A stretch of 64,000 bases of DNA from Acorus gramineus (Eukaryota; Streptophyta; Magnoliopsida; Acorales; Acoraceae). Below are positions 3,841 to 37,636 of this stretch, piece by piece. Every line of letters starts with the position of its first letter. The stretch's first letter is position 1. The translations under genes were made by a program, and so were the position numbers. The DNA lies in assembly GCA_030737835.1 (NCBI GenBank), contig JAUJYN010000015.1:678861-742860 (forward strand), written 5' to 3'. Below the pieces are notes generated by a model. That model was not told the origin of the DNA, ran no database searches, and saw only the letters and a program-made list of their open reading frames with translations.

Positions 3841-3879
3841 ATCTCGTCGGATGGGATGCGCGAGGTCCCGGGTTGTATG
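3841..3879 (+). other. Microexon-like segment (39 nt) in LTR A
   Basis: Preceded by CCTTGCAG and followed by GTGAGTGG, both near-consensus plant splice sites. The segment starts ATCTCGTCGG. The same 39-nt length is seen at 58876-58914 and 53837-53875 (minus). Confidence 0.5.
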
Positions 3880-3965
3880 GTGAGTGGTTTGATCCAATCC
3901 CCCCCCCCTCTCGGGATGCGCTCGACGCGCGTAGTCGCACGTCGCGCATCGATGGGGCCCCCTAG

Positions 3966-3995
3966 CCATACTACTTGTGTAGATAAGTAGTATGG
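3966..3995. other. Conserved LTR hairpin H1
   Basis: CCATACTACTT / AAGTAGTATGG form an 11-bp perfect stem with the 8-base loop GTGTAGAT. It lies about 90 bases after the microexon. It recurs with a 9-bp stem at 13768-13793, 22197-22222 and 28480-28505. Confidence 0.85.
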
Positions 3996-6089: not shown

Positions 6090-6101
6090 TGGTATCAGAG
6101 C
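6090..6101 (+). other. Primer-binding site of NA-1
   Basis: TGGTATCAGAGC, complementary to initiator tRNA-Met, 5 bases after the LTR terminus. Confidence 0.93.
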
Positions 6102-6199
6102 CTGGTCCTGTCAGAGCCTAAGTCTAGTCGTATAGATGATGAGTCGTAGGATTGCCATCCGAGTACTCTTGTTTTAGAAGTTATCTTTAGTTTGCTGAC

Positions 6200-6430
6200 A
6201 TGCCTCCTCGCATCCGTTGACGTGGACGTGACCCCTTGGACCCACCCTTAAGTTGTCGACTGGGTCGACTGAATAGGGTCAGTTGTTGGATCCCTTGTGG
6301 CGGGATTAAGGCTTGGGTAGGAGATTCTAGCCTAGTAGTGTGATAATGATGAACTGGTCGCAATTTCTAAGGTATGGATTGCGTCTCGAAAATGGAGCTT
6401 CTTTCCCGTACATCGGTATTGATGGTAACC
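6200..6430 (+). pseudogene. gag 5' remnant of NA-1
   Basis: The ATG at 6200 opens MPPRIR and stops at codon 7 (TGA, 6218-6220). The identical stop is present at the same codon in NA-4 (24682-24684) and NA-5 (61564-61566, minus). The following 200 bases are non-coding leader shared by these elements. A CpG C-to-T change (CGA to TGA) would explain the stop. Confidence 0.8.
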
Positions 6431-6521
6431 ATGGAGTTCGCGTGCGGCGCCAGTTTCAAGTGTTGAGGATGTGGAGTATTGCTCATTAAGGGGTGATGTC
6501 TTCTTCCAGCCTTCCTACTCA

Positions 6522-6658
6522 GGATTAAGGGGCCTTGCGGGGTCATCGTTGAGACCCGGGCTAGGGTACTCCGTGTTCCTTGTTTGGTTGTCGGGATATC
6601 CTATATCGGGACCTCATGGTGCCCTCCCGAGGTTTCTTTTCCCAGACAAGGAATACCT
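6522..6658 (+). repeat. Segment shared with family-B LTRs, inside NA-1
   Basis: This stretch closely matches the interior of family-B LTRs (for example 11783-11895, 20455-20570, 44060-44190, 52285-52395) yet sits between the gag start and the gag core. The same segment occurs in NA-3, NA-4 and NA-5. It is absent from the A and C LTRs I could compare. Confidence 0.75.
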
Positions 6659-6734
6659 TGAAGCACCAAATCCCAGTCAAGGAATACCTTGAAGCACCAA
6701 ATTGATGATGGATTTTTCCCCTCACTTGGAAGGT

Positions 6735-7260
6735 GCTGTAGCGAGTGGTGATGCATACGATCAGGATTGGGTACATCCTATTGCATCTTGGTGGGCGATT
6801 GCTTGTGGACTGGGTTCCATAGTGGCATCTGGAGTCGCTTCGATATATCATTGTGCGTTGTAGCTGCCCAGTTGAGGCCAGAGCCTTGTGAGGTGCTCCC
6901 AGATACTATGCTTGTTGGTGCGCCCATATGGCAGAGATAGTGGGCTTGGGAGGCTACCAGGTAGGGGCCACACCGGGAGAGTGCTACTAGATGATGTCGA
7001 GAGCGTGGACTCCTTGTGATGAATCTGCCCATGGAGTGCAGGATGCTGGAGTTCCAATGGTTGTAGTTGAGCGACCTATCTCTGGCGGCATGTGAAGCAC
7101 AGTTGTGGATACTGTCACGTTTTGCCCCATCTTGGTCGCAAATAAGAAGACGCGATGCTAGCGTTCGTGATGGGACTCAACCGCCTTATCAGATAGATGA
7201 CGTCACATAGGCATGGTCGAGGTTCGACGACCCCCCCTTATTGCGTGTCTTGTGGATTAA
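6735..7260 (+). pseudogene. gag core remnant of NA-1
   Basis: Degenerate capsid-like region. Its identity comes from alignment by eye to the better gag at 37386 onward (minus strand). At about 7109-7129 it reads ILSRFAP, matching the LSRFAP motif there, and a degraded Ala/Trp-rich segment near 6770-6810 resembles the GSAADWW motif. Several stops and frameshifts are present. The zinc knuckle and protease that should follow are missing, and RT follows directly. Confidence 0.7.
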
Positions 7261-7264
7261 GTGC

Positions 7265-7655
7265 GGTTGAGCGGCTTACCAAGCGTGTAAGTGTCATCAT
7301 GAGCGCCAGCCATGCTCGAGGAGCAGAATCTGGACTTAATTGTTCGCGGTGTTGTTTTGATCTTCTCGTAGGGGTCGAAGATCAGGTACCCCTTGCTGTG
7401 AATTGATGATCTGTTTGACCAGCTCTGGGAGCGAGTGTCTGCTGTCAGATCGATCTTCGCACAAGGGTACCACAAGTTGGAGATCCGAGAGTTGGACATC
7501 CCGTAGATGGCCTTTCGTGACTGTTTCGGGCACTAAGAGTTTTAAGTACTGCAGTCGGGGTTGACGAATGAGCCGGATGCCTTCATGGATCTCAAAATTT
7601 TTACTAGGCTTCCGTGGACTACTTTGAGGTAGTCTTCATAGAGATTGCTAGTAGT
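7265..7655 (+). pseudogene. Reverse transcriptase remnant of NA-1
   Basis: DDLFDQLWERV is readable from 7405, preceded in frame by a TGA (7399-7401). ELDIP is then followed by a TAG at 7504-7506, and a degraded V-V-F-I near 7630-7650 is what is left before the catalytic Asp pair. The fingers/palm portion remains. The thumb, RNase H and integrase N-terminus are deleted at a junction shared with NA-3, NA-4 and NA-5. Confidence 0.85.
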
Positions 7656-7669
7656 GCGATGAAAAGGTG

Positions 7670-8790
7670 ATGTGGGTGACCTTGTTTCCCCAGGTTGGCA
7701 TGCCCTCAGGCAAAGTTCGAGAATCATCATCGCGTTGGAAAGCGTCAGTCCATGGAGATTCCTCAGTGGACGTGGGAGTGGGTTATCAGGGATTGTTGCG
7801 GACTCGCTAATGTCACGTTCGGGTCACGACGCCGTCTAGGTGATCAATGACCGACTGACTAAGTCCGCACTTCCCTCCCTAATCCGACTGATTGAGTCTC
7901 TGGACGCCTTGACGAGGGTTTTCACCTTCGCGATTGTTCGTCTTCATGGCACTCCGGTCGGCGCTATTTTCGGTTGAGACGCGAGGGTTACTTGGAGGTT
8001 GTGGCGCAGCCTTGGCAGGCTTTGGCGCGAGCCTCCATTTAAGTATAGCGTTTCATCGCCGATGGACAGCTGGACAAAGAGGACGATTTAGACCTTGGAG
8101 GACATGCTAAGTACCTGCGTGCTCGATGATGAGGGCAGTTGGGTGAGGCACCACCCATTTGTTGGGGTATGCCTACAAGACGACTGCCATTCGAGCATCC
8201 AGATGGATCTGTGAAAGGCACTCTACAGGCGCAGTTTTATACCACCCTTGTGTTGGGACGGTTGACGAGCGCCAGTTGGAGGGGCCATAAGTCAGTTGTT
8301 TGACCTTGCGGTGGCCAGGTTGGTTCGTGTGTGCATCTGCACCTCCCAGAACCGACAGAAGGGCTACGCAGGTCATCGTCGCCAGGAGCTTACCTTTGGG
8401 TTTGGTGATCGTATTTTTGAGAAGGTGTCCTGGTTTGAGGGTACCCTCTGTTTCGACGTTCGGGGCAAGCTGAGTTGGCTCTTTAATGGGACCGTTTCTC
8501 ATCATTGAGTGGATTGGGGAGGTGGCTTATCATGTAGCCTTTCCCCCACAGCTGGCTCATGCCCACGACGTCGTCCTTGTCTCATGGCCGAGGCGTTATG
8601 TCCACGATCCTGCTCATGTCATTCTGTTCGACCGCCTCATCCTCGAGTTGGATTTGTCGTTCGTGGAGCAGTGGATCGAGGTCAAGGACCAACATGAGAA
8701 GAGGCTCCACGCTAAGACCGTTCCTTTGATTATAGTGTGTTGGTAGCGCCAGTCCGGTGCAAAGACCACTTGGGAGCAAAAGGTTTATGC
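7670..8790 (+). pseudogene. Integrase remnant of NA-1
   Basis: Starts at the second cysteine pair of the zinc finger (RCG*PC near 7670-7690), continues with GKRQSMEIPQW (about 7740-7775) and a ruined catalytic core. It ends with a GPF/Y-type C-terminal domain readable from 8485 to 8746 (GPFLIIEWIGEVAYHV, AHAHDVVLVSW). The C-terminal part is the best preserved. The chromodomain is barely recognisable. Confidence 0.85.
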
Positions 8791-8854
8791 GAGATACTTG
8801 CTATATTCGGTCTTCCCTTTTGGGTTTCCTTAAATTTCGAGGACTAAATTTCCT

Positions 8855-8867
8855 AAGGGGGGAAGAA
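8855..8867 (+). other. Polypurine tract of NA-1
   Basis: AAGGGGGGAAGAA directly abuts the 3' LTR start TGTTATGCC at 8868. This is the plus-strand primer site. Confidence 0.92.
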
Positions 8868-9362
8868 TGTTATGCCTGTGTCATTTGGAGCGCTCTGATT
8901 GAAAATTAGGCTACATAATTTTCCTCCTAGAAGTTATGTATTTCCGATTTGGTATTTGGATTTAATTTTGTTAAAATCCAAGATGAAGAGGTTTAAATAT
9001 GATTTTATCATGAGATGCTCAATTTTGAGTTAGCTTTCGTACAAAAGTTGAATTAGATCAACTGGATTCATGTAGTAAAAGTTATGGGTATTTTTCCAAG
9101 TATACCCGGGGATGAAAAATTCTAGCAACAGCCCTTGTCAATTCTTAGCTCAAATTTCAGAATAGCTAGAAGGATTATTTGATCTTGGCATAAACATGAA
9201 AGTTGTAGATAATCTTCTTGGCTTTCCAACGGATTTTGAATTGTGCAATTCGGAGCTATATTGAGGAAGTTATGGCTGTTCTAGTGAAGCATGTACAGAA
9301 TTTCTAGTCAGGGATGAATTGGTCATTTGTATCCCTCTTTTGGATATTTATTTGCCCAAAAA
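8868..9362 (+). repeat. 3' LTR of NA-1, first part
   Basis: Same start as the 5' LTR (TGTTATGCCTG) and colinear with 2494-2990. It is interrupted by solo LTR B1; the duplicated target is AAAAA on the left and ACAAA on the right (one mismatch). Confidence 0.92.
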
Positions 9363-10564
9363 TGTTATATATGTGTCACTTTTAATCTTCTGGTAACCGT
9401 TGGACCATTCTGGCAGTTTTTGAGTTTTTTTGTTTTTCGATCGGAACCGCTAAAATTTTGGGCTTTTAGCTATCACCCTGAGGTTGAGGGCTCCGATTGA
9501 AAATATAACTGCATATTATGTGTCTTGGTGCCATTCCAAGCCGCTCACAAAAATTTCATCGAATTCCGGTAACGTTTCAGAATTTCATAGTTCCGGGGCG
9601 TATCCGGGTTTTGACCGAGCGAGAAGTCATTGGGAGAGTTGACTTGGTCAAAGTGGGTCCATGACTTGGTCAACCCTTTTTGTTTTTTTGTGTGGTTGAG
9701 TTGACCCAAGTCAAAGCTCACTTAAACTCATTAATCAAGCCTTAAACCCTAATTAACCTTGTTTACCCTAATCTAAGTGGAGTTGACTTATTTAAGTGAG
9801 TAGCAAAAGTTTCCCTCCACTATTCATCATCTTCTCAAGTGAGCTCTCTCTCTCCCCCTCTCTCATTTTCCTTGTTTTGAGCCACCTAGAGGGCTTGAAA
9901 CACAAAACCCAAAACATAGAAATGTTAGATCCGGTCCCGATCTATCTACCGGTAGTTTCGGATTCGAATTCCGGAGTGTTTATCCCCTCCTCACACCCTC
10001 TTTTCTCCTCAGATTTCAGCCCCTTTGAAGGTGGGAAGAGACCTTGGTGGTGGACGGCTTTGGGGAGGCTTTCCGGTGCACGAAGAGCTCCCGGTTCCCT
10101 TCCCTTCCTTTCCTTTCCTTGGGTAAAACTCTCTTTCCTTCCTTTCTTGTTTAGATGCTTGTTAGGATGATGTTTTTGAGTTGGGGTGGCTGTGGGTGGC
10201 GGTGGGAGGCTGTCGGCGGCGGTTGGTGGCCGTGGGAGACCATGGGTGGCCGTCGGGCAAATGGGAGAGCTATCCCGGGTGGGCTCGGGCAGCAGGCAGG
10301 CAGGACTCGGGAAGCAGGCAGGGCGGTGCTCGGGCTGGCAGGCGGGCAGTGCTCGGGCTCCTCGGCAGTGCGCGCGGGCGAGCAGCGCGGGCAAGCTGGC
10401 AGGCGCGCTGGACGCGTGCTGCCAGGCGCGTTGGGCGCGTGTTGCGGGGTGTGCGCGTGGGCGCTGGGCGCAGAGGCTGGTCGCGGGTGCTGGGCGCCGG
10501 GCGCGGGCGCTGGGCGCTGGGCGCCGTGCGGGCAGAGAGCGCGCGGAGCGCTGCGCAGGGGCGC

Positions 10565-10868
10565 AAAATTTTAAAAATTTCATTGTTTTAACCTCACATT
10601 TAAACGTACCTTTAGATTTTTTTTTTTGTTGAAAAATTATAATCATATCTATTTTAAGAAAAATTCAAAATAGACAATGACTGAAATTACCTTTTAGAAT
10701 AACTTAAAAAACACAACTAAATAAAACATGATTTATTCCACTGGTTGATATACAGTCATCTATCCGTGATCAGTTGGGAGATTGAACTCAAAATGTTTAA
10801 TTTTTTTTTTTGGATGCCCAATTTGGGTAGAAGAATGGATGGGGTATAATAAGAGTGAAGAAGTAAAA
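10565..10868. other. AT-rich insertion of unknown origin in LTR B1
   Basis: About 300 bases of AT-rich DNA with two long T runs, sharply bounded by GC-rich sequence on both sides and missing from B2, B3, B4 and B-AUT. I find no terminal inverted repeat, no clear target duplication and no long reading frame. Confidence 0.6.
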
Positions 10869-11432
10869 ATGCTGTGCGCGCGGAGTGGTGAGCGGGTGGT
10901 GTGCGAGTGCTGCTCGGAGGGCGTGGTGCGCGCGGGGCGAGTAGGGTGCGAGCGCGGAGTGTGAGCGGGCAGGTGTGCGGGCGCTGCGCTGGGGCGAAGT
11001 GCGGGCGGGCGCACGTGCGGGGCGCTACGCTGGGGCGCAGTGCGCGCGGGTGCACCGGGGGCTGGTCGAGCCGGTGGTACGCGCGGGGTGCGCGCGGAGC
11101 GAGGCGATGGCGCGCAGGGTGTGCGGGTGTGCGCGCGGGTTGCTGTGCTGGGGCGCAGTGAGCGCGCGGTGCACCCGGGAGGTCTCGGCAGGGTGTCCGG
11201 GCGTGCGGGCTGAGCTCGGCAGGGCGTCTGGGGGCGCGGGCCGGGGCTCGGCTGTGCGCCCGGGGCGGGTGGCCGTGCGTGCGGCTGCCCGGGGGGTTTG
11301 GGAATGAGTTGGGGTGCTCGGGCTCGCGTGCGTATAGGCCGTATGTACGCTTGTCCGAGTGTTGTGTATTTTTAGGTATTTTTGGATTTATTTGTGGATT
11401 TTGCTCACCGAATTGATTACGCTATTTTGCAG

Positions 11433-11468
11433 ATCTTGACGGACGGTCGCGCGACGACCCGACTATCG
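11433..11468 (+). other. Microexon-like segment (36 nt) in LTR B1
   Basis: Acceptor TTTTGCAG, 36 nt starting ATCTTGACGG, donor GTGAGTGG. Length and flanks are identical in the other B LTRs. Confidence 0.55.
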
Positions 11469-12231
11469 GTGAGTGGGACAATCCAACCCAGTAGGGAGGC
11501 GTATACGCACTTGGGCGTGTACCGTCCTCCCCTGGGGCACCATGGATTATATTAACTTGTTGTAATGTGAAATCCATGCAAGCATGAAAAATGTAGAATG
11601 CATGCCACCCTAGACTTGTACGTTAGGGACTTGCACCCTTAGGTTGTGTAAGAGCCGTGCATCCTGTCACCTTGTTATCATGCTAGGAAGCCTCGACCTA
11701 TGCATGTGTCCTACTAGTTTAATTTGTTAAATTAAATGCTAGAATATGTTTAATTGCATGCCTTAGATAATATTATAGGGAGGGGCCTTGCGAGGTCAAC
11801 ATTGAGACCCGTGCTAGGGTACTCCGTGTTCCTTGTTTGGTTGTCGGGATGTCCTATATCGGGACCTCACGCTGCCCTCCCAAGGTTTCTTTCCCAATAG
11901 TATTATACCCTTACTGTTATTATTATTATGCATGTTCCCCGCATCTTGGTTATGCGCCCTGGAGGAATTCTGAGGAATTCATGACATTAGAGTTGTTGAG
12001 ATGTGTTTGTCAGCGGATCCGAGTGGATCATATGCGATGGATAGGCTGATCTGTTCCCTTCGTTGGATCCTTTAGAGACTACCCCGGCTAGAGAGACTGT
12101 CCCGTGCAGGGGCTCCCATCAGTAGGCACCTCCTGATCTTGGACTCGGATTGTGCTGAATGTGGGAGTGGCCAAACAGCCTACGGAGTGGGGAGAGACTA
12201 TCGGTGGACCAAGGGCGACCATCAGCCTAGT

Positions 12232-12470
12232 CAGTCCCAATATCCTATGTCACCTATTGAGAGGTGAGGGTGAGGGTGTGGTGGGTTGGCAATGTAGCGA
12301 CCCACTGGATTGTTAGTCCCAATATCCTATGTCACCTATTGAGGGGTGAGGGTGAGGGTGTATGATTGTGTATGGATGTTTATCAGGCTAGTCAGTCCCA
12401 ATATCCTATGTCACCATATTGAGGGGTGAGGGTGAGGGTGTAGTGGGTTGGCGATAGCGACCCCCTGGCC
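12232..12470 (+). repeat. Tandem repeat in LTR B1 (about three units)
   Basis: A unit of roughly 80 bases beginning CAGTCCCAATATCCTATGTC, containing GGGTGA repeats and a GTGGGT...ACCCAC hairpin, is repeated imperfectly. Copy number differs among family-B LTRs: two at 52733-52900, two in the right LTR of B-AUT (about 38680-38860), one in B2 and B3, none in the left LTR of B-AUT. Confidence 0.75.
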
Positions 12471-13005
12471 TGTATAGCTGTTGCCATTTTGTGGCTTTTA
12501 ATAATGTGATTGTGAGTTAATAATATCTGGTGGTTAATATAAATTGTGGGGCACGGGTTGTGCTGTTCACTGAGCGTGTGGCTCACCCCTCGCATAATAT
12601 TTTCTCCAGTGTCATCTGAGTCGGATCTGGAGGAAGAGCTCCCCGAGGGACTTCATCAGTAGCGGAGTAGCGCTACGTCCCGCGAGTATCAGAGGCTATC
12701 AGCATCCCTTGTAATTATATGTATTTATTCCGTGCTTGGGCACGCGTTTGTATTGTATTTGGATGTCTTTGTATATATTGGCTCTCACAGGACAGTTGAT
12801 TTATGTATCGAGTCTGTAATGTGTTTTGGATTACAGATTCAGTCTTTTAGCTTCCGCTATTGGTGTATATATCATGTCAGCCCTGCTTTTGTAGTCTTTG
12901 TTGTCATTTTAGCTGTTGTGTGAGTATATTATTGAACTCTTGTTTATACTGATATCATATATACACCTGCCGCATCCCGGGGTCGGCCGGCCCTGGGGCA
13001 TGACA

Positions 13006-15296
13006 ACAAATATCTCTCTCTCTCTCCCTCCCACTCCCCACGTGGGATTCTTTGGGTCTCTCTTTCTCTCTTTTCACTCCCCCAAGGTGTTTGTGTTATT
13101 TCCTCAAAGAGAAGAGAAGGAGAAGGTGAAGGAGGAAGAGAAGGAGAAGGTGAAGGAGAAAGAGAAAGGTTTGTGTAGGTGTTGTTGTTGTTATTGTTTC
13201 CCCTCTCTCAAGCACCTTTTCATGACCATTCCCCCCCCCCTGATTTTCAGCCAAGAAGGAGGCTGAGGAGGGCTGTGGAGGTGGTGGTAGTGGTGGTGGT
13301 GGTTGAGGTGGTCGTGGGTGCATCGAGGGCCCCTGAATCTCCCCCTTTCATTCCCCCTCCCAAGGTGAGCTCTTCCCCTTCTTTTCTTGGTTTTTCATGG
13401 CTTAGGGGGTTGTGGGGAGGTCATGCATGCTAGGTAATTGGTTTAGGGTGAGTGAGAAGTGTGGAGGAGGGGTTAAAAGGGGTTAAAAAGGGGTTAGGGA
13501 AGGCTGGGCGCGCGCAGGCGCGCGCGCAGGAGGGCGCTGGCAGGCGCAGGCGGGCGCGCAGACGTGGGCGGGTGCGCACAGAGTGGGCGCGTGGGTGCGC
13601 GTGGGCGTTGGCGCGAGCGGTGGTGCGCGCGGAGCGTGCGCGCGAGTGCGCTCGGGTGCACGAGGTCCCGGGTTGTTTGGTGAGTGGTTTGATCCAATCC
13701 CCCCCCCCTCTCGGGATGCGCTCGACGCGCGTTAGTCCACGTCGCGCATCGATGGGGCCCCCGAGCTATACTACTTGTGTAGATAAGTAGTATGGCCATG
13801 CATAAGCTGTAATATGTAGATATCTTGCATGCTAGGCTTATATACATGTATTGTATTCATGTATGAATGATTGTGTTGCATGAGCCCCTCTAGTATGGGC
13901 ATGTATGTTGTAAATGTGTATGGATGTGAAGAATATGGCATGTCATAGGTAGTATTGTTACTACTCCCACCATATTAATGGGAATATATAGTATGATTAA
14001 GTCTGGGTTAATAATGGGCACCTGCCTAATATTCCCTTGCGATAAGACTTGAGGGCAAGGTGTATATTGCGCCCATGCTAATGGGGCAAAGCTATGACCA
14101 GCTTCATGAGATGATGATCTCGCTCGCCCTCTCCCTCTGAACGAACTGAAAGTAGATGCTATTTCCTACTCGACTCAGGTTCGTCTGAATATTGGCATGC
14201 ACCTGTTACTGCGCGAGATCGCGCCTGACTTTTTCTTTTAAGTTGACGATATCCAACGCATGCTTAAGTTAGGCCTTGTGATTAATGACCATGTATGCAT
14301 GTTGTATGATTTATCATGATGTAAATCCATGTTAGGGAGTGTCCCTATAATTATTAGATGATTGTGCATATGGTTCATGCACATAGCTGGATATATTTAT
14401 ATGCGCATGTTAAAAACTGATAGGCCTATCTGAAATAGGTGTGGGTATGACCCGCTGTCGGGTTGTACCTTATTAGTTAGAGCGCTAGCGATGTAATCGC
14501 CCCGTGCATCCGAGCGATGCACTCATTTGGAATTCAGGAGAATTCATTAGCTTATGGGATTATTTCTATGTGAGAGCAGAGGCAACCCCCCCTTTGTGTC
14601 TGAGCGACGCAACGGTGTGGGAGTACAGTAGTATTCGATATATCGATAAGTGATTATCGAGAGCAGTTGTTTTTCCATTAGGTTCGCTTTGCGAACATGG
14701 AATGTTTACTCCCAATGTCATCCGTGATGAAGAGGCCCGGGTTGTAGCTGTCCTGACAGAGGGCTCCCATCCGTAGGTACCACCGATGCGTTCGGGAGCG
14801 TACCGATCATGGGAGTGTACCAGGTAGAGGCTACCCGGGAGAGGGCTAACGAATGATATTGCGAGCGTGGAATCGTTCTCCCCTTCGTTGGATCCGATGT
14901 AGGAACTCTCCGGCGTTGGGAAAGCTGTCCTGACAGAGGGCTCCCATCCGTAGGTACCACCGATGCGTTCGGAGGGTATACCAGGTAGAGGCTACGGGGG
15001 GGAAAGGGCTTCCGGTGGACCAAGGGTGTAGAGCAGTCTAAGTCTCTTCCAAAAGTCCCAAGAGTCTCCCTCCTGGAGTGAGGGTGAGGATGAGGTGAAG
15101 ACACGTCGCCTCGTGACCCATTCGTTGTTCGTCCGTTCCCATAGTTGTTGGGTCCGGTCTCGTATCGATGTTCAAAGACATCGTTGGGTAGTTACCTCGA
15201 TGTAGATGATCCAGTAGTGTTGCGTAGACCAGTAATCCCGGGTCTCCTCGACCAACGGTATGGTCTCTCCCTAAAAGTCCCAAGAGTCTCCCTCCG

Positions 15297-15329
<33 letters not shown>

Positions 15330-15867
15330 TTGGTCGCGCCGCCGCGTGACCCTGTTATCCATGGGTTTCTACCCATGTTTTCCTCGAAAGGAAAGTGCTT
15401 ATATATTGAACTGTTGTATGGTGATTGGTTTCCAGCCACTCACTGAGCTTGTAGCTCACCCCTCACATACTGTTTCTTTTAAGGGGCAGTGTTGGGCGTG
15501 GAGCTGGAGCTTTCCTGTGGCGTGGTCTTATGGACGTGGAGCGTTCTTCCGGCGGGTGGCGAGTGCGAGGCTGTCAGCAGTCCTAGAGTCATTGTATATA
15601 TTGTAAATCGTGCATGTGGCACAGGTTGTATTTTCTTTGGTCTAGATTTGGCTCTCACAGGACAGTGATTGTGTATTCGAGTCTGTAATAATGTTTTTGG
15701 TTTACAGACATTGTTTATATATTATGCTTCCACTTTTCAATCAGTTATCATTATCCTTGCTTTGCCACCTTGTGTGTTGTTGTTGGAGTCTTTATTTGAC
15801 CTCAGGTATTGATAGCTGATATTTTATTATTGCCACGTCTCGGGGACGGCCGCCCTGGGGCGTGACA
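13006..15867 (+). repeat. 3' LTR of NA-1, second part
   Basis: Resumes with the duplicated target base run and TATCTCTCTC, colinear with 2991-6084. Compared with the 5' LTR it lacks about 220 bases around 13660, which removes most of the GC block, the microexon acceptor and half the microexon. It ends GGCGTGACA at 15867. Confidence 0.9.
15304..15324 (+). other. G-quadruplex motif (GGGTGA repeat)
   Basis: Four GGG runs separated by TGA loops, the canonical G4 pattern, in the LTR upstream of the last acceptor. Similar GGGTGA repeats occur in every LTR of the window. Confidence 0.7.
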
Positions 15868-18586: not shown

Positions 18587-19145
18587 TGTTATATATGTGT
18601 CACTTTTAACCTTCTGGTAACCGTTGGGACATTCTGGCAGTTTTTGAGTTTTTTCATTTTTCGATCGAAACCGCTAAAATTTTGGACTGTTAGCTATCAT
18701 CCTAAGTTTGAGGACTCCGATTGAAAATCTAACTGCATATTATGTGTCCTGGTGCCATTCCAAGCCACTCACGAAAATTTCATCAAATTCCGGTAACGTT
18801 TCAGAATTTCACAGTTCTGAAGCGTATCTGGGTTTTGACCGAGCAAAAAGTCATTGGGAGACTTGACTTGGTCAAAGTGGGCCCCATGACTTGGTCAAAT
18901 ATGTTTGGATTTTAGTGTGGTTGGGTTGACTAGGGTCAAACCACACTTAAACCTAATCTTAATCCTCCCTAATCCTAGTTTAACCTAATCTAAGTGTGGG
19001 GTGACTTATAAGTGAAGCTAAAAATATCTCCCCCCACTATTCATCATCTTCTCCACCCAAATTTCTCTCCCCTCCTCTCTTTAAATCCACATTTAGACCT
19101 AGCTAGGGTGCTTGAAACCAAAAACCCTAAGAAGAGAAAAGATAG

Positions 19146-19237
19146 GTGAGCTCCCGATCTACCTTCCGGTGGTCTCGGATTCGAGTTCCCTCAAGTGTGA
19201 CCCCCCTCTCTTACCCTCTTTTCTCCTCTGATTTCAG
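19146..19237 (+). other. Putative intron 1 in LTR B2
   Basis: 92 bases from GTGAGC to a pyrimidine-rich CTGATTTCAG. The equivalents in B3 (42604-42694) and B4 (50961-51051) are both 91 bases with intact GT and AG. The size fits short plant introns. Confidence 0.5.
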
Positions 19238-20105
19238 CCACTTTGAAGGCTGAAAGAGATCTTGGTGGTGGTGGCCTTGGAGGAGGTGTTTCGGTGCGCG
19301 AAGAGCACCCGATCTTCCCTTCCTTCCTTTCCTTCCTTGGGTGAGGTTTCTTTCCTTCCTTTCCATGCTTAGATGCATGTTAGGAGGGTGTTTTTGGGTG
19401 TGGGTGGCTGTTGGTGGCGGTTGGTGGCGGTTGGTGGCCATTGGTGGCCGTCGGGGAGGTGGTAGGCTGTCTCGGGTAGGCTGGCAGCACAGGCAGGCGG
19501 GCTGGCAGGCAGGGCGGGCAGAGAAGGCTGGCAGGGCACGCGCGCGTGCGCGCGGGTGGAGCAGGAGCGTGCGGGTGTGTGCGCTGGGCGCCGTGCAGGG
19601 GCGTGCGCGCGGGCGCTGCGCAGAGGCGCAGTGCGTGCCGCGAGCAGGGGTCGTGTGCGGATGCTGCGCAGGGCGCTGTGCGGGGGCGTGCGCGTGGAGC
19701 GCTGCGTAGAGGCGCAGGCGTGCTGTGCACGCGCGGTGAGGCGAGCCGGTGGTGCGCGCGGGGTGCGCGCGGGGTGAGGCGATGGGGCGCAGGGCGTGCG
19801 GGTGTGCGCACGAGTGCTGCGCTGGGGCGCAGTGAGCGCGCGGTGCACCCAGGGGGCTCGGCGGCGTGTCCTGGCATGCGGGCAGGGGCTCGGCAGTGCA
19901 TCTGGGCGCGCGGGCTGGGGCGCGGCTGTGCGCCTGGGTCGGGTGGCCGTGCGTACGGCTGCCCAGGGGTTCGGGAGTGAGTCGGGGTGCTCGGACTCGC
20001 GTGCGTACGGGCCGTATGTACGTTTGTCCGAGTGTTGGGTATTTTAGTGTATTTTTGTATATATTTGTGTATTTTACTCACCGAGTTGATTACCCTATCT
20101 TGCAG

Positions 20106-20141
20106 ATCTTGACGGACGGTCGCGCGACGACCCGGTTATTG
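20106..20141 (+). other. Microexon-like segment (36 nt) in LTR B2
   Basis: Acceptor CTTGCAG, segment starting ATCTTGACGG, donor GTGAGTGG. Confidence 0.55.
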
Positions 20142-20938
20142 GTGAGTGGTACAATCCAACCCAGTAGGGAGGCGCTATATGCACTTGGGCGTATACCGTC
20201 CTCCCCTGGGGCACCATGGTTAATATTAACTTGTGTAACATGTAATCCATGCAAGCATGATTAATATGTAGTATGCATGCTACCCTAGACCGTGTATGTT
20301 AGGGACTTGCACCCTTAGGATATGTGTAAGAGCCATGCATCCTGTCACCATGTTCTCATGCTAGGAAGCCTCGACCTATGCATGCGTCCTATTAGTTTAA
20401 TTTATTAAATTAAATGCGAGCATATGTCTATTAGTATGCCTTGGGGAATATTAAGGGGGCCTTGCGAGGTCAACATTGAGACCCGGGCTAGGGTACTCCG
20501 TGTTCCTTGTTTGGTTGTCGGGATGTCCTATATCGGGACCTCAGGTTGCCCTCCCAAGGTTTCTTTTCCTCATTATTATCATATATGTTCCCCGCATCTT
20601 GGTTATGCACCCTGGAGGAATTCTGAAGAATTCATGACATTAGAGTTGTTGAGATGTGTTGTCGGCGGATCCGAGTGGATCATATGCATATGGATAGGTT
20701 GTTCTGTTCCATTCGTTGGATCCGTGTAGAGACTGCCCTAGCGTTAGAAAGGCCGTCCCGTGAGAGGGCTCCCATCAGTAGGTACCTCCTGATTTTGGAT
20801 TCGGACTGTGCTGAATGTGGGAGTGGCCAAGCGGCCTACGGAGTGGAGGAGAGACTATCGGTGGACCAAGGGTGATTAACAGCCTAGTCAGTCCCAATAT
20901 CCTATGTCACCATATGGAGGGGTGAGGGTTAGGGTGTG

Positions 20939-20963
20939 GTGGGTCGGCAATGTAGCGACCCAC
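20939..20963. other. Conserved LTR hairpin H2
   Basis: GTGGGTCG / CGACCCAC form a perfect 8-bp stem with a 9-base loop. It also occurs at 44469-44493, 50071-50095, 52871-52895, 59608-59632 and 62944-62968, in both family B and family A LTRs. Confidence 0.8.
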
Positions 20964-21484
20964 TAGATTTTGTAGTTCCTGCCACTTTGAGGCTTGATTA
21001 TTTATTTGTGGTTGATATAATTGTGATGGATGGGTTGTGCTATTCGCTGAGCATGTGGCTCACCCCTCGCATAATTTTTCTCCAGTTATCATTGAGTCGG
21101 ACTTGAAGGAGGAGCTCCCCGAGGGACTTCATCAGTAGTGGAGCAGCGCCACGTCCCGCGAGTATTAGAGGCCATCAGCATCCTTTCTTTTGCTTGTATG
21201 TATATATTTCCGTGCTTGGGCACCGTTTGTATATTATTTGGATGTATGTGTGTATATTGGCCCTCACTGGACATTTGATTATGTATCGAGTCTGTAGTAT
21301 TTTTTTGAATTACAGACTCAGTCTTTTAGCTTCCGCTATCTGTGTATATATCATGTCAGCCTTGCTTTCGTATGTGTTGTCATTTTAGTTGTTGTTTAGA
21401 GTATGTTATTGATCTCCTGTATAGACTACTGATATCATGTATACACTTGCCGCGTCCCGGGGACGGCCGCCCTGGGGCGTGACA

Positions 21485-24564: not shown

Positions 24565-24569
24565 AAAGT

Positions 24570-24581
24570 TGGTATCAGAGC
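24570..24581 (+). other. Primer-binding site of NA-4
   Basis: TGGTATCAGAGC, 5 bases after the LTR end. A second partial copy (TGGTATCAGAG) lies at 24703-24713. Confidence 0.92.
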
Positions 24582-24663
24582 CTAAGTCTAGTCGTATAGA
24601 TGATGAGTCGTAGGATTGCCATCCGAGTACTCTTGTTTTAGAAGTATATCTTAGGTTACTGAC

Positions 24664-24715
24664 ATGCCTCCTCGCATCCGTTGACGTGGACGTGACAAAA
24701 GTTGGTATCAGAGTT
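24664..24715 (+). pseudogene. gag start remnant of NA-4, with a duplicated PBS-like scar
   Basis: The ATG at 24664 opens MPPRIR and stops at codon 7 (TGA 24682-24684), as in NA-1 and NA-5. At GACGTGGACGTGAC (ending about 24696) the sequence jumps to a second AAAAGTTGGTATCAGAG and then straight to sequence lying about 240 bases further on in NA-1, so the leader is deleted. Confidence 0.8.
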
Positions 24716-24788
24716 TCAAGTTTCAAGTTTTGAGGATGTGGCGTATTGCTCATTAAGGGGTGATGTCTTCTTCCAGCCTTCCTACTCA

Positions 24789-24924
24789 GGATTAAGGGGC
24801 CTTGCGGGGTCATCGTTGAGACTCGGGCTAGGGTACTCCGTGTTCCTTGTTTGGTTGTCGGGATATCCTATATCGGGACCTCAGGGTGCCCTCCCAAGGT
24901 TTCTTTTCCCAGTCAAGGAATACC
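24789..24924 (+). repeat. Segment shared with family-B LTRs, inside NA-4
   Basis: Counterpart of 6522-6658 in NA-1, again placed between the gag start and the gag core. Confidence 0.75.
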
Positions 24925-24989
24925 TTTGAAGCATCTATTGATGATTGAGTTTTCCTCTCACTTGGAAGGTGCTGTAGCGAGTGGTGATG

Positions 24990-25490
24990 CGTACGATCGG
25001 GATTGGGTGCATCCTATTGCAGCTTGGTGGGCGATCGCTTGTGAACTAGGTTCCATAGTGGCATCTGTAGTCGCTTCGATATATCATTGTGCGTTGTAGC
25101 TGCCCGGTTGAGGCCAGAGCCCTGTGAGGTGCTCCCAGATACTATGCTTGTTGGTGCGCCCATATGGCAGAGATAGTGGGCTTGGGAGGCTACCAGGTAG
25201 AGGCCACACTGGGAGAGTGCTACTGGATGATGTCGAGAGCGTGGACTCCCCGTGATGAATCTGCCCATTGAGTGCAGGATGCTGGAGTTCCAATGGTTAT
25301 GGTAGGGCGACCTGTCGGTGGCGGCATGTGAAGCACAGTTCGCGATACTGTCGCGTTTTGCCCCCACATGGGTCATAAACGAGGAGACGCGATGCTAGCG
25401 TTCGTGATGGGACTCAACCGCCCTATCAGATAGATGACGTCGCATAGGCATTGTCGAGGTTCGATGACCCCTTATTGCGTGTCTTGTGGA
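24990..25490 (+). pseudogene. gag core remnant of NA-4
   Basis: Translating around 25280-25470 gives SVAACEAQFAILSRFAP and then NEETRC. These match [15 protein letters not shown] and DEETRC of the better gag (minus strand, about 37250-37200). Stops interrupt it, for example a TAG after the RPIR motif near 25430. It lacks the CCHC knuckle. Confidence 0.78.
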
Positions 25491-25499
25491 TTAAGTGTG

Positions 25500-25895
25500 G
25501 TTGAGCGGCTTACCAAGCGTGTAAGTGTCATCATGAGCGCCAGCCATGCTCGAGGAGTAGAATCTGGACTTAATTGTTCGAGGTGTTGTTTTGATCTTCC
25601 CGTGAGGGTTGAAGATCAGGTACCCCTTGCTGTGAATTGATGATCTATTTGACCAGCTCTGGGAGCGGGTGTCTGCTGTTAGATCGATCTTCGCACAAGG
25701 GTACCACAAGTCAGAGATCCGGGAGTTGGACATCCCGTAGATGGCCTTTCGTGATCGTTTCAGGCACTACGAGTTCTAAGTACTGCCGTCAGGGTTGACG
25801 AATGCGCCAGATGCCTTCGTGGATCTCAAAAGTTTTATTGGGCTTCCGTGGATAACATTGAGGTAGTCTTCATTGAGATTGCTAGTGGTGCGATG
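25500..25895 (+). pseudogene. Reverse transcriptase remnant of NA-4
   Basis: Has [12 protein letters not shown] with the TGA directly upstream (25633-25635) and the TAG after DIP (25738-25740), the same two stops as NA-1. The catalytic region is truncated at the shared junction near 25885-25910. Confidence 0.87.
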
Positions 25896-25904
25896 AAAAG
25901 ACGA

Positions 25905-27030
25905 TATGGGTGACCTTGTTTCCCCAGGTTGGCATGCCCTCAGGCAAAGTTCGAGAATCATCATCCCGTTGGAAAGCGTCAGTCCATGGAGATTCCTCAG
26001 TGGACGTGGGAGTGGGTTATCAGGGATTGTTGCGGACTCGCTAATGTCACGTTCAGGTCACGACGCCGTCTAGGTGATCATTGACCGACTGACTAAGTCC
26101 GCGCTACCCTCCCAAATCCGACTGATTGAATCTCTGGACGCTTTGACGTAGGTTTCCACCTTCGCGATTGTTCGTCTTCTTGGCACTCCGGTCGGTGCTA
26201 TTTTCGGTTGAGACGTGAGGGATACTTTGAGGTTTTGGCGCAGCCTTGGAAGGCTTTAGCGCGAGCCTCCATCTAAGTGCAGCGTTTCACCGCCGACGAA
26301 TGGCCAAGCAGGAGGACGATTCAGACCTTGGAGGACATGCTAAGTGCCTGCGTGCTCGATGATAAGGGCAGTTGGGAGAGGCACCACCCATTTGTTGGGG
26401 TATGCCTGCAAGACAACTGTTATTCGAGCATCCTGATGGTACTGTGAAAGGCACTCTACAGGCGCAGTGTTATACCTCCCTTGTGTTGGGACGGTTGAGG
26501 AGCGCCAGTTGGAGAGGCCACAAGTTATTTATTTGACCTTGTAGTGGCCAGGTTGGTTCGTGTGTGCATCTGCACCTCCCAGAACCGACAGAAGGGCTGC
26601 GCAAGTCATCGTCACCAGGAGCTTACCTTTGGGTTCGGCGGCCATGTTTTTGTGAAGGTGTCCCAGTTTAAGGACATCCTATGTTTCGGCGTTCGGGGCA
26701 AGCTGAGTTGGCCCTTCATCGGACCGTTTCTCGTCATTGAGTGGATTGGGGAGGTGGCTTGTCATGTAGCCTTTCCCCCACAACTGGCTCATGCCCACGA
26801 CGTCGTCCTTGTTTCATGGCTGTGGCGTTATGTCCACGATCCTGCTCATGTCATTCTGTTCGACCGCCTCATCCTCGAGCTGGATTTGTCGTTCGTGGAG
26901 CAGTGGATCGAGGTCAAGGACCAGCATGTGAAGTGGCTCCACGCTAAGACCGTTTCTTTGATTACAGTGTGTCGGTAGCGCCAGTCTGGTGCATGGACCA
27001 CTTGGGAGCAAAAGGTCTATGCGTGATACT
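25905..27030 (+). pseudogene. Integrase remnant of NA-4
   Basis: Begins at the second cysteine pair of the zinc finger, retains GKRQSMEIPQW near 25975-26010, and has an open C-terminal stretch at 26544-26978 that reads RVCICTSQNRQKG, then GPFLVIEWIGEVACHV and AHAHDVVLVSW. The catalytic core is full of stops. Confidence 0.85.
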
Positions 27031-27085
27031 TGCTATATTCGGTCTTCCCTTTGGGTTTCCTTAAATTTTGAGGACTAAATTTCCT

Positions 27086-27098
27086 AAGGGGGGGAGAA
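27086..27098 (+). other. Polypurine tract of NA-4
   Basis: AAGGGGGGGAGAA abutting the 3' LTR at 27099. Confidence 0.93.
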
Positions 27099-30340: not shown

Positions 30341-33199
30341 TGTCACGCCCCAGGGCGGCCGTCCCCGGGACGCAGCAAGGGTATACATGATATCAACAGT
30401 CAATACATGAGATCAATAATATACCATAAACAACAGCTAAAAAGACAACACAGACAACAAAAAGGCTGACATGATGTATACACAGAAAAGCGGAAGCAAA
30501 AGACTGAATCTGTAAATCAACAACACTTTACAGACTCGATACATAATCATATGTCCTGTGAGAGCCAATATATCCACAATACATCCCAATACAATCCATA
30601 CTAGGTGCCCAAGCACAGAAATATATACATACAATATTAGAGAAGGATGCTGATGGTCTCAAAACTCGAGGGACGTGGCGCTACTCCGCTACTGGTGTAG
30701 TCGCTCGGGAAGCTCCTCCTTCAAGTCCTCCTCGGTAATCACTGGAGAAAATAATTATGCGAGGGGTGAGCCACACGCTCAGTGAATAGCACAACCCATG
30801 CATACAGTTTATATTAACCATATTTAATCAAGTCAATAGCCTCAAAGTGGCATAAACAACACAAATCCGGGGGTTCGTTACATCACAGAACCACCTGCAC
30901 GGGACGACCTTTCCAACGCTGAGGTAGTCTCTACACGGATCCAACGAAGGGAACAGAACAGCCTATCCATCGCACATGATCCACTCGGATCTGCTGACAG
31001 CACATCTCTACTACTCTAATGTCTTGAATTCTTCATAATTCCACCAGCGCGCATAACCAAGATGCGGGGAATACATAAGATAATAATGAGGGAAAAGAGA
31101 CCTTGGGAGGGCAACCTGAGGTCCCGATATAGGACATCCGCCAACCAAACAAGGAACACGGAGTACCCCATCCCGGGTCGCAATGTTGACCTCGCAAGGC
31201 CCCCTTAATATTCCCCAAGGCATGCCAAAAATATCTTAAGCTTGCATTTAATTAAATAAATCAAACTAATAGGACGCATGCATAGGTCGAGGCTTCCCTA
31301 GCATGATAACGAGGTGACAGGATGCACGGCTCATGCACATATCCTAAGGGTGCAAGTCCCTAACATACAAGTCTAGGGTGGCATGCATTCTACACATAAA
31401 TCATGCTTGCATGGATTACAATAAAACAGTTAATATTAACTATGTGCCCCAGGGGAGGACGGTACACGCCCAAGTGCATGTAGCGCCTCCCAACTGGGTT
31501 GGGTTGTCCCACTCACCGGTGACCGGGTCGTCGCGCGACCGTCCGTCAAGATCTGCAAGACAGGGTAACCCACTTGGTGAGTAAAATACACAAATACCAC
31601 AAAATACTCAAAACACACAAATAAACACCCAACACTCGGGCAAACATGCATACGGCCCGTACGCACGCTAGCCCGAGCACCCCGACTCACTCCCGCACCC
31701 CCGGCAACCACCCGCACGGCCACCCGCCCCTGGATGCACCACCGCGCCTCAGCCCGCGCACCCAGGCGCACCGCCGGGCCCTTGCCCGCACGACTGGACC
31801 TGCTGCCGAGCCACCCGGGTGCACCGCGCGACCACTGCGCCCCATTGCAGCAACCCGCGCGCACACCGCATGTCCCGCGCGCCCAGTGCGTCGCCCCGCG
31901 CGCACCCCGCGCGCACCTCTACTGCCTCGCCGCGCCCTCACCTCGCTCCGCGCGCACCCCGTGCTCGCCCAGCACTCCATCGACTCACCGCGCGCGCACA
32001 GCGCGCCTGCGCCCCTGCGCAGCACTCCGTGCGCGCCCCGCACGACGCCCTGCACGCATGCCTACCCGGCCAGCACCCCCAGCACGCCCAGCACATGCCC
32101 ACTCGACCAGCACACCCCAGCACGCCCACCGCATGCCCACTCGACCAACGCCCAGCACACGCGCCCTGCTGGCCTCCAGCTCCACCCGAGCGCACACCCG
32201 CGCACACGCACAAGCGCGCCCTGCCAGCTGCGCCTGTGCTGCCTGTGCTGCTGCCTTGCCCGAGACCACCCATCCACCTTGCCCGAGCACCTCCACCACT
32301 ACCCATCGGCCACCAACGGCCTCCGACCGCCCCCAACCACCTCCGACAGCCTCCCACAGCCGCCGACCACCACCCAACCTCAAAATCACCCTCCTAACAA
32401 GCATCTAAGCCAAAAAGAAGAGGAAGAAGAGCTTACCAAGGGGAGGAAGGGATGTTCGGTTGCTCTCCGCGCACCGAAACGCCTCTCCAAGGGTCTCCAC
32501 CACCGAGACCTCTTCCCACCTCCGAAATGGCTCTGATCTGAGGAGAAGAGAGGGCGGAAGAAAGGGCTAGACACGCCAAAATTCGGATTTGCAACCACCG
32601 GGGTGTAGATCGGGACCGGATCTACCCTTTCTATGTTTTAGGTTTTAAGGTTTGGGCACTCTAGCTAGGTTGAATGAAGGTTTTAAGGGGAGGGGGAGAG
32701 AGAGAGATTGCTCGGAGAAGAAGATGAATAGGGGGTTTAAGTCGTGGGATTTCTTTAAAACCACCCCCACCCCACCTATACTCACACCCCTAATTAGTTT
32801 AGCCCTAATTAGGTTTAGGGGGGCTTAAGGGGGGTTTTAAGTGGGTTTGACCTAAGTCAACTCAACCACACAAAAGGACAAAAAGGTTGACCAAGTCATG
32901 GGCCCACTTTGACCGAGTCAACTCTCCCAATGACTTCTCGTTCGGTCAAAACCCGGATACGCCCCGGAACTGTGAAATTTCGGAAACGTTACCGGAATTC
33001 GATGAAATTTTGTGAGTGGCTTAAAATGGCACCAGGACACATAATATGCAGTTAGATTTTCAATCGGAGTCCTCAAACACAGGACGATAGCTAACAGTCC
33101 AAAATTTTGCGGTTCCGATCGAAAAAAACAAAAAAACTCAAAAACTGCCAAAATGCTCCAATGGTTACCAGCAGGCCAAAAAGTGACACATATATAACA
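30341..33199 (-). repeat. 3' LTR of B-AUT
   Basis: 2,859 bp; on its own strand TGTTATATATG to GGCGTGACA. Relative to the other LTR it lacks about 280 bp near 30890, spanning the tandem-repeat region. It retains exon 2, the 36-nt microexon (31517-31552) and the last-exon frame (30689-30741). Confidence 0.93.
31517..31552 (-). other. Microexon-like segment (36 nt), 3' LTR of B-AUT
   Basis: On the minus strand: acceptor CTTGCAG, segment starting ATCTTGACGG, donor GTGAGTGG. Confidence 0.55.
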
Positions 33200-33212
33200 T
33201 TCTCCCCCCCTT
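33200..33212 (-). other. Polypurine tract of B-AUT
   Basis: Minus strand AAGGGGGGGAGAA directly before the LTR start TGTTATATATG. Confidence 0.93.
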
Positions 33213-33247
33213 AGGAAATTTTGTCCTCAAAATAAATACAAGAACAT

Positions 33248-35332
33248 CTAAGAAGGGAAAAGATGCGGATACGCGTCACGCATGGCGTCCTCGAGCTCCC
33301 AAGTGGCCTCGGCACCGGAACGGTGCTGCCATCGCACCTTGACCAGCTGGACGGTCTTGGTGCGGAGCCTCTTCTCGCGGCGGTCCAGGATCTCAATCGG
33401 CTGCTCATCGAAAGACGAGTCCGACTCGAAGACGAGCGGCTCGAACGGGATGACGTGAGCAGGATCGTGGACATATCGCCTCAGCTGCGAGACATGGAAG
33501 ACGTCATGAGCCTGAGCCAACTGTGGGGGCAGAGCTATGCGATAGGCCACCTCTCCAACTCGCTCGAGGATGAGGAACGGCCCAATGAAACGCGGACTCA
33601 GCTTGCCCCGCACACCGAATCGGAAGATGCCCTTCATCGGGGACACCTTCAAGAACACATGGTCACCAACCTCGAAGGTGAGCTCACGGCGACGACGGTC
33701 GGCGTAGCACTTCTGACGACTCTGAGCGACTCGGATACGCTCGCGAATCGTCTTCACCATCTCGGAGGTCTGGTGAACGATCTCTGGTCCCTCTAACTGG
33801 CGCTCTCCGACCTCGTCCCAACACAGGGGGGACCTGCAGCTGCGGCCATAAAGTGCCTCGTAAGGAGCCATCCGGATGCTCGAGTGGTAGCTGTTGTTGT
33901 AGGCAAACTCCACCAACGGAAGGTGCCTCTCCCAACTGCCCCCAAAATCGAGAACACAGGCCCGCAGCATGTCCTCAAGAGTCTGGATCGTCCTCTCTGA
34001 CTGGCCGTCTGTCTGCGGATGAAACGCTGTACTGAAATGGAGGTTCGTACCAAGGGCGTGCTGGAGGCTACGCCAGAACCTCGAAGTAAAACGCGCGTCT
34101 CGATCGGAAATGATGCTGACTGGAGTGCCATGGAGACGGACAATCTCGGAGACAAATAACTGCGCTAGGGTGTCCAGAGAATCGGTGAGTCGGATGGGGA
34201 GGAAATGAGCAGACTTCGTCAGCCGGTCGACGATCACCCAGATGGCATCGCGACCCGAATGTGACCTCGGCAAACCCGAGACGAAGTCCATGGTGATCTG
34301 CTCCCACTTCCACTGAGGGATCTCAATGGACTGCAGCTTCCCCGCAGGGCGCTGATGCTCCGACTTCACCTGCTGGCATACTAGGCATCGAGAGATGAAA
34401 CGGGCGATATCCGTCTTCATCCCACGCCACCAGTAGCCGTGACGAAGGCCCCTGTACATCTTCGTGCCACCAGGATGCACTGTGTCGTCGGGAATGCACA
34501 CTCGGCCTCTGAATCGCAGGATCCCGTCCGCGCGAATCTGGTAGTCCGGACGCTCGCCCCGGGCGACGCCTTCAGAGAGGACTATAAAATGCGGATCCTG
34601 AGCCTGAGCCGTGCGGATATCGTCGAGAAGGACTGGCTGCACCACTAGCCTGGCCAAAAAGCCACCAGCAGGAGTCTCTCGAACGCTAATCCAGCAAGCG
34701 GCCTCCTCCAGAAGCCTCCAACGACGGACAGCCATGTGGGCGGCCATGCCCAAGGGCTGCCTACTGAGCGCATCTGCAACGACATTCGCCTTACCCGGAT
34801 GGTAAGCGATGTCACAATCGTAGTCCGTCAGGAACTCAACCCAACGTCTCTGACGCATGTTGAGCTCCGGCTGGGACTGCAGATATGTCAAGCTCTTATG
34901 ATCAGTAAAGAGCTCGAACTCCTCTCCATAGAGGTAATGCCTCCACATCTTCAGCGCAAAGATGATCGCAGCCAACTCAAGGTCATGGGTGGGGTAATTC
35001 TGCTCATGGGGCTTCAACTGACGAGACGCGTAAGCCACCACCTTACCGTGCTGCATCAGGACGCAACCCACACCCAACTGCGATGCATCTGTGTAAACTG
35101 CGAACCCACCACTCCCAGATGGAAGGGTAAGAACTGGCGCTGAGGTGAGCCTTCGCTTCAGCTCCTGGAAGCTCTCCTCGCAAGCAGGGGACCACTCGAA
35201 CCGAATATCCCCTTCCGAGTGAGGCGGGTAAGAGGAACGGCTATCTTCGAGAAACCCTCGACAAACCTCCTGTAATAACCCGCCAAGCCCAAGAAGCTCC
35301 GAATCTCTGTGGGGTTCGACGGTCGACGCCAA
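33248..35332 (-). CDS. Pol C-terminal part: RNase H, integrase, chromodomain
   Basis: 694 residues from the first Met, but genuine homology begins near residue 42 (about 35210), where the upstream RT frame ends, so this is the second half of a frameshifted Pol. RNase H: TDAS with D82, E119, D144 and D187. Integrase: zinc-finger residues H286, C316 and C319, with the usual first His not visible; catalytic D349, D410 and E446 with the D-35-E spacing. GPF motif at 582-586. The C-terminal domain (about 643-690) ends with VRWQHRSG and a Trp-Glu-Leu-Glu motif, as in integrase chromodomains, which direct insertion to chromatin. The stop lies just before the PPT. Confidence 0.93.
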
Positions 35333-37622: not shown

Positions 37623-37636
37623 CCTCGCTGCAGCCT

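Follow-up and report, generated by a model that had tools for sequence, protein, structure and literature searches.

Conserved putative splice signals within the long terminal repeats of a Tekay/Del-like retrotransposon family in Acorus gramineus

Predicted exons and introns in the LTRs of family B

The stretch of DNA analysed here, termed the window, comprises 64,000 nucleotides (nt) of Acorus gramineus contig JAUJYN010000015.1 (GenBank assembly GCA_030737835.1, positions 678,861 to 742,860 of the forward strand) and is made up of nested long terminal repeat (LTR) retrotransposons. Typical hallmarks of such elements, namely LTRs with TG...CA ends, 5-bp target duplications and a tRNA-type primer site, were found. 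Six LTRs belong to one family, designated B, and harbor an ordered series of predicted splice donors and acceptors. In signal position, order and conservation, this splice-signal architecture extends beyond family B. For the solo LTR B2 the following features were determined:

18587-21484, plus strand: B2 solo LTR, 2,898 bp, TG...CA ends, 5-bp target duplication GCCGA, insertion into the 5' LTR of element A
19006-19011, plus strand: TATA-like box TTATAA, 31 nt upstream of the assumed exon 1 start at 19037
19037-19145, plus strand: predicted exon 1, start placed according to the TATA-like box
19146-19237, plus strand: predicted intron 1, 92 nt in B2; donor GTGAGC in B2 and B4, GTAAGA in B3
19238-19340, plus strand: predicted exon 2, 103 nt; ATG absent from exon 2 in all six B copies
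19341-20105, plus strand: predicted intron 2, 765 nt in B2
20106-20141, plus strand: predicted exon 3 (microexon), 36 nt
20142-21085, plus strand: predicted intron 3, 944 nt in B2, donor GGTGAGTGG
20167-20205, plus strand: stem-loop obtained by folding, 26 nt into intron 3
21086-21195, plus strand: predicted exon 4, up to GTATGT, 110 nt, without ATG

All donor, acceptor and exon coordinates of B2 agree exactly with those given in a preliminary description made from the sequence alone. That description had also reported an intron 1 of 91 nt in B3 and B4, followed by an exon 2 of 105 and 103 nt, respectively, as well as a 36-nt microexon in each of the six B LTRs (at 11433, 20106, 43612 and 51937, and on the minus strand at 31517 and 39576), all of which was confirmed. 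The remaining B copies are located as follows:

9363-13005, plus strand: B1 LTR, microexon 11433-11468, without donor 1, target duplication not clear
42024-45015, plus strand: B3 solo LTR, target duplication GATAT, microexon 43612-43647
50393-53437, plus strand: B4 solo LTR, target duplication ACTAA, microexon 51937-51972
30341-41266, minus strand: full-length B element, one such copy in the window
30341-33199, minus strand: B5, 3' LTR of the full-length B element, exon 3 at 31552-31517
38128-41266, minus strand: B6, 5' LTR of the full-length B element, GT of donor 2 at 40503, exon 3 at 39611-39576, GT of donor 3 at 39575, exon 4 start at 38525

All six B copies feature a TATA-like match 28-32 nt upstream of the assumed exon 1 start, and in each of them the microexon is flanked by TTGCAG and GGTGAGTGG. 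Intron 2 ranges from 765 to 1310 nt and intron 3 from 775 to 1141 nt in these copies. The length variation of intron 3 apparently originates partly from a short GTGAGGG repeat (around 20920-20945 and at equivalent places) and from duplicated TCAGTCCCAATATCCTATGTCACC blocks. GC-rich GCGCG stretches in intron 2 (around 19480-19990 and equivalents) give rise to long opposite-strand open reading frames (ORFs), which are probably spurious.

Introns 2 and 3 show GT-AG boundaries, a branch-like motif, a pyrimidine tract and conservation across families, whereas the donor of intron 1 is not conserved. The conserved multi-exon series claimed preliminarily holds for the signals of introns 2 and 3 and for acceptor 2, and fails for donor 1. 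Because donor 1 exists in three of the six B copies only (B2, B3 and B4), intron 1 is an optional part of the series. At the corresponding place in the six non-B LTRs, an aligned GT was present in all and the pattern GTRAG in none. Exon 2 of B5 and B6, where the AG or the pyrimidine context of the acceptor was lost, measures 94 nt when counted from the B2-aligned acceptor and 101 nt from an alternative CTCAG.

Furthermore, the invariant microexon length had been interpreted as a sign of selection for splicing. This constancy represents weak evidence for splicing because 455 of the 3,402 windows of 36 columns downstream of the exon 1 start (13%) are likewise free of gaps in all six B copies, and because related LTRs possess an exon 3 of 37 nt (A1, A2) or 39 nt (C1, D1, E1); in F1 it comprises 36 nt.

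Conservation of the splice signals

Copies were re-enumerated by BLAST with sequence pieces surrounding each site and without using the motifs themselves. The sites were proposed from the B copies, and the non-B LTRs consequently represent a partly independent test. Donor 3 was present as GGTGAGTGG in 13 of 14 motif-independent copies, the exception being the truncated copy G. At acceptor 3, AG was found in all 12 copies keeping the region (C2, G and E2 lost the place by deletion or truncation), and a branch-like CTCAC motif occurs 25-27 nt upstream of it in 10 of the 11 LTRs checked, B4 being without it. Donor 2 retained GT in 13/13 copies and GTRAG in 11/13 (A1 and B1 deviate), acceptor 2 was conserved as TTTCAG in 11/13 and lost in B5 and B6, and AG was kept at the aligned place of acceptor 4 in 14/16 (lost in D1 and in the minus-strand copy at 46617). 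The block GCTCACCCCTC preceding acceptor 4 was detected in 15 of 16 copies.

Further comparisons of GT/AG sites and window sets were based on 12 LTRs selected by their boundaries and not by the motif. Downstream of the exon 1 start, 31 of 204 GT and 22 of 146 AG sites in the alignment of these LTRs were kept in at least five of six B and at least five of six non-B copies; donors 2 and 3 and acceptors 2, 3 and 4 are all among them. The preliminary description had proposed a comparison of the sites with their neighbours. Within the one window, conservation of the core against the 45 nt on either side amounted to 0.86 vs. 0.65 for acceptor 2, 0.87 vs. 0.63 for donor 2, 0.92 vs. 0.78 for acceptor 3, 1.00 vs. 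0.78 for donor 3 and 0.93 vs. 0.72 for acceptor 4 (13 or 15 copies, G left out), so that these five sites jointly are more conserved than their surroundings; donor 1 is not. Random sets of two GT and three AG windows reached the mean observed for the five sites 13 times in 200,000 draws; with non-B copies alone, they did so 30 times in 200,000. These counts serve as a guide and not as exact probabilities, since conserved islands cluster. The share of 6-nt windows that are equally conserved was 1% for donor 3, 4.5% for acceptor 2 and 29% for donor 1. Selection for the splice signals, as proposed in the preliminary description, is supported by conservation between B and non-B sequences and not by the constancy of exon length.

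Scored with an approximate plant splice matrix of rounded values, donor 3 ranked 1st to 4th among the 234-275 GT sites of each B LTR, and acceptor 4 ranked 2nd to 5th among 152-202 AG sites, both in all six copies.

Leader splicing inside the LTR and alternative explanations

Judged from these sequence comparisons, it is probable that leader splicing takes place inside the LTR, with introns residing wholly within it, so that a spliced RNA would provide the 5' untranslated region (UTR) of the gag-pol messenger and an unspliced RNA the template for reverse transcription. The very long transcribed part of the LTR of B and its relatives would accordingly contain spliceosomal introns. We infer that transcription begins some 30 nt downstream of the TATA-like box (19006) and that splicing joins donor 2 to acceptor 3 and donor 3 to acceptor 4, as well as donor 1 to acceptor 2 in some copies, thereby removing about 1.7-2.5 kb. 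The resulting leader, carrying zero to one AUG per copy, would serve translation as the gag-pol 5' UTR. The unspliced RNA would retain the introns together with the stem-loop just below donor 3, would be packaged and copied into new LTRs, and the LTRs would keep their introns for this reason.

Because the R-U5 part of a new LTR derives from the RNA 5' end, reverse transcription of spliced RNA would cause the LTR introns to vanish from new copies. Among the 12 LTRs compared over their entire length, none appeared intronless. Neither the deletion in C2 nor that in E2 corresponds to an exon join; the latter, compared with D1, extends from inside intron 2 to inside intron 3. A search with 24-nt strings for four B2 exon junctions, allowing up to six mismatches, yielded no match except one at six mismatches. 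Because the LTRs retain their introns and exon joins were not found, these results support unspliced RNA as the template, provided that splicing occurs, and are consistent with what the preliminary description had suggested.

In 12 of 13 copies, a hairpin comparable to the stem-loop of B2 begins 26-41 nt downstream of donor 3, with a weak or poor fold in F1; when copy G is included, the hairpin is present in 13 of 14. Its upper stem is unrelated in sequence between B and non-B copies. Energy z-scores ranged from -0.3 to -3.0 for the ten copies folded, and covariation, analyzed within B and within non-B, did not exceed that of shuffles, one pair being double-changed per group. As the folded structure would be present on unspliced RNA only, a function in packaging is a reasonable hypothesis. 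Near the LTR 3' end (21290-21317 in B2), another inverted repeat, GTCTGTA...TTACA, is conserved; the pattern occurs in 15 of 15 LTR ends searched and folds fully in 14 of them (weakened in E1). It could represent a poly(A) or dimer element.

Summed over the six B copies, ATG occurs twice in the 2,392 nt of predicted exons and 231 times in the 11,666 nt of introns, with intron 1 of B1, B5 and B6 taken as exon. A scanning ribosome would accordingly meet 0-1 AUG in the predicted spliced leader vs. 34-46 in the unspliced RNA up to the same point. Selective AUG depletion was weak after control for composition and was rejected.

Several observations weigh against the proposed splicing. The scarcity of ATG is mostly a matter of composition (per-copy P of 0.06-0.27 relative to dinucleotide shuffles), the copies are related to one another, and exon 4 was taken to end at the GTATGT-type pattern that holds its first ATG. 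By the same approximate matrix, donor 2 ranks 2nd to 37th, acceptor 3 7th to 22nd and acceptor 2 9th to 22nd (the latter in four copies, B5 and B6 left out), stronger sites being present elsewhere. Intron 2 has 60-70% GC and 21-23% T, unlike plant introns, which are described as U-rich (PMC3735527). Half of the B copies (B1, B5 and B6) lack donor 1. Equally conserved 6-nt windows make up 8% each for donor 2 and acceptor 3, which is moderate, and 19% for acceptor 4, which is not outstanding. Moreover, the six non-B LTRs correspond to about three lineages (C1/C2 96%, A1/A2 94.5% and D1/E1 93% identical), and all copies originate from one 64-kb window.

Further points of this kind are shared with the explanation that conserved RNA or DNA elements for packaging, dimerisation, polyadenylation or promoter function resemble splice sites by chance and that no splicing occurs, which we regard as rather unlikely. 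Conservation continues past donor 3 into the stem-loop, the first 75 nt of intron 3 being 87% invariant in B compared with 78% for exon 3. The truncated LTR copy G (2380-2493, minus strand; 2469), which adjoins element C, has lost donor 3 and kept a strong stem-loop. The block CACTGAGCnTGTnGCTCACCCCTCGCATA before acceptor 4 exceeds what splicing needs, and families without gag, in which gag is truncated, retain the signals, which makes a role restricted to the gag messenger incomplete. On the other hand, the conserved islands match the branch-like CTCAC, YAG and GTRAGT at several places and in the correct order, and the length of exon 3 differs (36, 37 or 39 nt) between intact signals; both speak against chance resemblance.

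An extension of leader splicing, a full splicing switch in the LTR, appears doubtful. It would comprise introns 2 and 3 and a possible intron 4, the removal of which takes away the primer site, and would result in an AUG-poor, replication-dead messenger, with the stem-loop close to donor 3, duplicated in both LTRs, marking unspliced RNA alone for packaging, in plants the equivalent of the psi signal that retroviruses carry downstream of their major splice donor. The candidate concerned is:

38018-38416, minus strand: possible intron 4 in B6, from GTATGT at 38416 to CTTAG at 38018

Its removal would join the leader 9 nt upstream of the gag ATG of the full-length B element (38008), deleting the LTR end and the primer-binding site. 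In B6 the acceptor ranked 5th of 194 and the donor 9th of 274 according to the approximate matrix. The acceptor AG was kept in all five elements with an aligned internal region, and the donor GTATGT in five of six B copies and three of nine non-B LTR ends. Intron 4 is considered speculative because of the latter value.

Leader splicing might also be real and mainly serve RNA export or stability, or restrain premature polyadenylation via U1, instead of separating messenger from genome. The persistence of the strong donor 3 in truncated-gag families fits this improbable explanation, and Ashe et al. reportedly found that the major splice donor of human immunodeficiency virus 1 silences the poly(A) site of the 5' LTR via U1. 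However, donor 3 is present in both LTRs, so that U1 alone could not discriminate between the poly(A) sites at the 5' and 3' ends, and the internal regions of elements A, C and E are 91-93% identical, so the time without gag may have been short.

Finally, it is very improbable that exons 2-4 form a small spliced gene for a short protein ending in ...EELPEGLHQ-stop in B: a single frame stays open through exons 2 to 4 in five of six B copies (past a stop near the start of exon 2 in some copies), the same TAG is found in all six, and exon 3 and the first 53 nt of exon 4 are free of indels in them, but an in-frame ATG is absent, B3 carries a 2-nt frame shift in exon 2, variable columns of exons 3-4 fall on codon positions 1, 2 and 3 with the weak tilt of 10, 7 and 12 of 29, the 37-nt exon 3 of A disrupts the frame, and exon 4 of non-B LTRs lacks that stop. 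Coding exons were not supported and were rejected, and neither is a gene-like nature of the series, as implied earlier, supported, with exon lengths breaking the frame between families and exons nearly devoid of ATG.

Host elements and comparison with known systems

The B copies are inserted in or accompanied by further elements:

17873-41772: element A, target duplication CCTGG, its 5' LTR interrupted by the solo LTR B2 and its 3' LTR by the full-length B element
2494-15867: element C, target duplication CGTCT, host of B1
Minus strand, running off the window end: element E, host of B4 and of another LTR, D1
33251-37422, minus strand: two ORFs of the full-length B element, gag-protease-reverse transcriptase (35161-37422) and RNase H-integrase (33251-35374)

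Target duplications were observed for B2, B3, B4, element A and element C, and an empty site matching the B2 insertion lies at approximately 27811 in the sister LTR of element A. A clear 5-bp duplication was not found for B1, D1 or the full-length B element. Relative to the empty site (approximately 24064), the insertion of the full-length B element (30341-41266) shows the loss of one base and no 5-bp duplication; the element may have arisen or been altered through recombination. Directly after its 5' LTR the primer-binding site TGGTATCAGAGC was identified, which we take to be of the iMet tRNA type.

Judged from its sequence, B is a Tekay/Del-like Ty3-gypsy element. The full-length copy shows the order gag-protease-reverse transcriptase-RNase H-integrase, with Pfam matches to Retrotrans_gag, RVP_2, RVT_1, RT_RNaseH and H2C2, and a match to rve only below its cut-off. 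Among the best 120 of at least 8,000 scored protein matches, identities were 43-63%, and those naming a species were all from flowering plants. The chromodomain PF00385, present in several plant relatives, was not matched in the ORF of the window at an E-value of 1e-3; by eye, the C-terminal segment presumably resembles a chromodomain.

The internal regions of A, C and E that share the identity given above (24565-27098, 6085-8867 and 55416-57337) apparently have one common internal pol deletion and a truncated gag, and the 5' parts of their LTRs are strongly different. They seem to constitute a non-autonomous family in which U3 was swapped or changes fast. No ORF of at least 180 amino acids was detected in these regions. 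Reverse transcriptase and integrase fragments persist in all three, gag fragments in A, and the gag reading stops at codon 7 in C1, A1 and E2. Scans of the window with Rfam at gathering scores and for tRNA genes yielded no hits, and no relatives were found in IMG/VR with two protein queries and one DNA pattern.

In human T-cell and bovine leukaemia viruses (HTLV/BLV) and in foamy viruses, a splice donor lies inside R, and unspliced RNA alone is the genome. Their donor is thus located in an LTR-encoded leader, as predicted here, with acceptors far downstream in the internal region; the B LTR, by contrast, is predicted to contain entire introns, each with its donor and acceptor.

For plant elements, the comparison draws on parts of open-access papers. 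Plant LTR elements are generally without introns, Ogre and EVADE excepted (PMC12786077). The barley Ty1-copia element BARE1 gives rise to both spliced and unspliced RNA, its translated and packaged RNA form separate pools, and a relative without gag (BARE2) coexists with it, just as truncated-gag relatives occur alongside B (PMC3735527). Unlike the introns predicted here, the 104-nt intron of BARE1 is situated at the end of gag and not in the LTR; likewise, BARE2 does not splice, whereas the truncated-gag relatives in the window retain splice signals (PMC3735527). Ogre, EVADE and CRR are plant LTR elements with partly spliced RNA as well (PMC6317226, PMC12786077, PMC3735527), and in the available text their introns either separate ORFs or interrupt the coding region, with none described inside an LTR. 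Retrosat2 of rice, grouped with Del/Tekay (PMC6317226), also possesses a long LTR (3.3 kb), about 2 kb of which was predicted to represent the R region (PMC3485330). That region was deduced from motifs, and in the accessible part of the paper 'intron' is absent from the main text and 'splic' occurs only in a reference title (PMC3485330). In long-read RNA data of sunflower, copia elements were spliced, and Tekay members were not in the highly expressed set (PMC7730604). A term search of the text available for PMC6317226, PMC3601003, PMC7010299 and PMC11656987 retrieved no LTR introns, and no report of introns within a plant LTR was found in the portions of the open-access literature searched.

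According to the same partial texts, the way in which plant LTR retrotransposons allocate one RNA to translation and to reverse transcription is understood for few elements. Introns residing wholly inside the LTR would, if true, represent a new way of dividing the RNA and could explain why some LTRs reach 3 kb. Moreover, solo LTRs, which are common remnants in plant genomes, would then constitute ready-made promoters equipped with splice sites.

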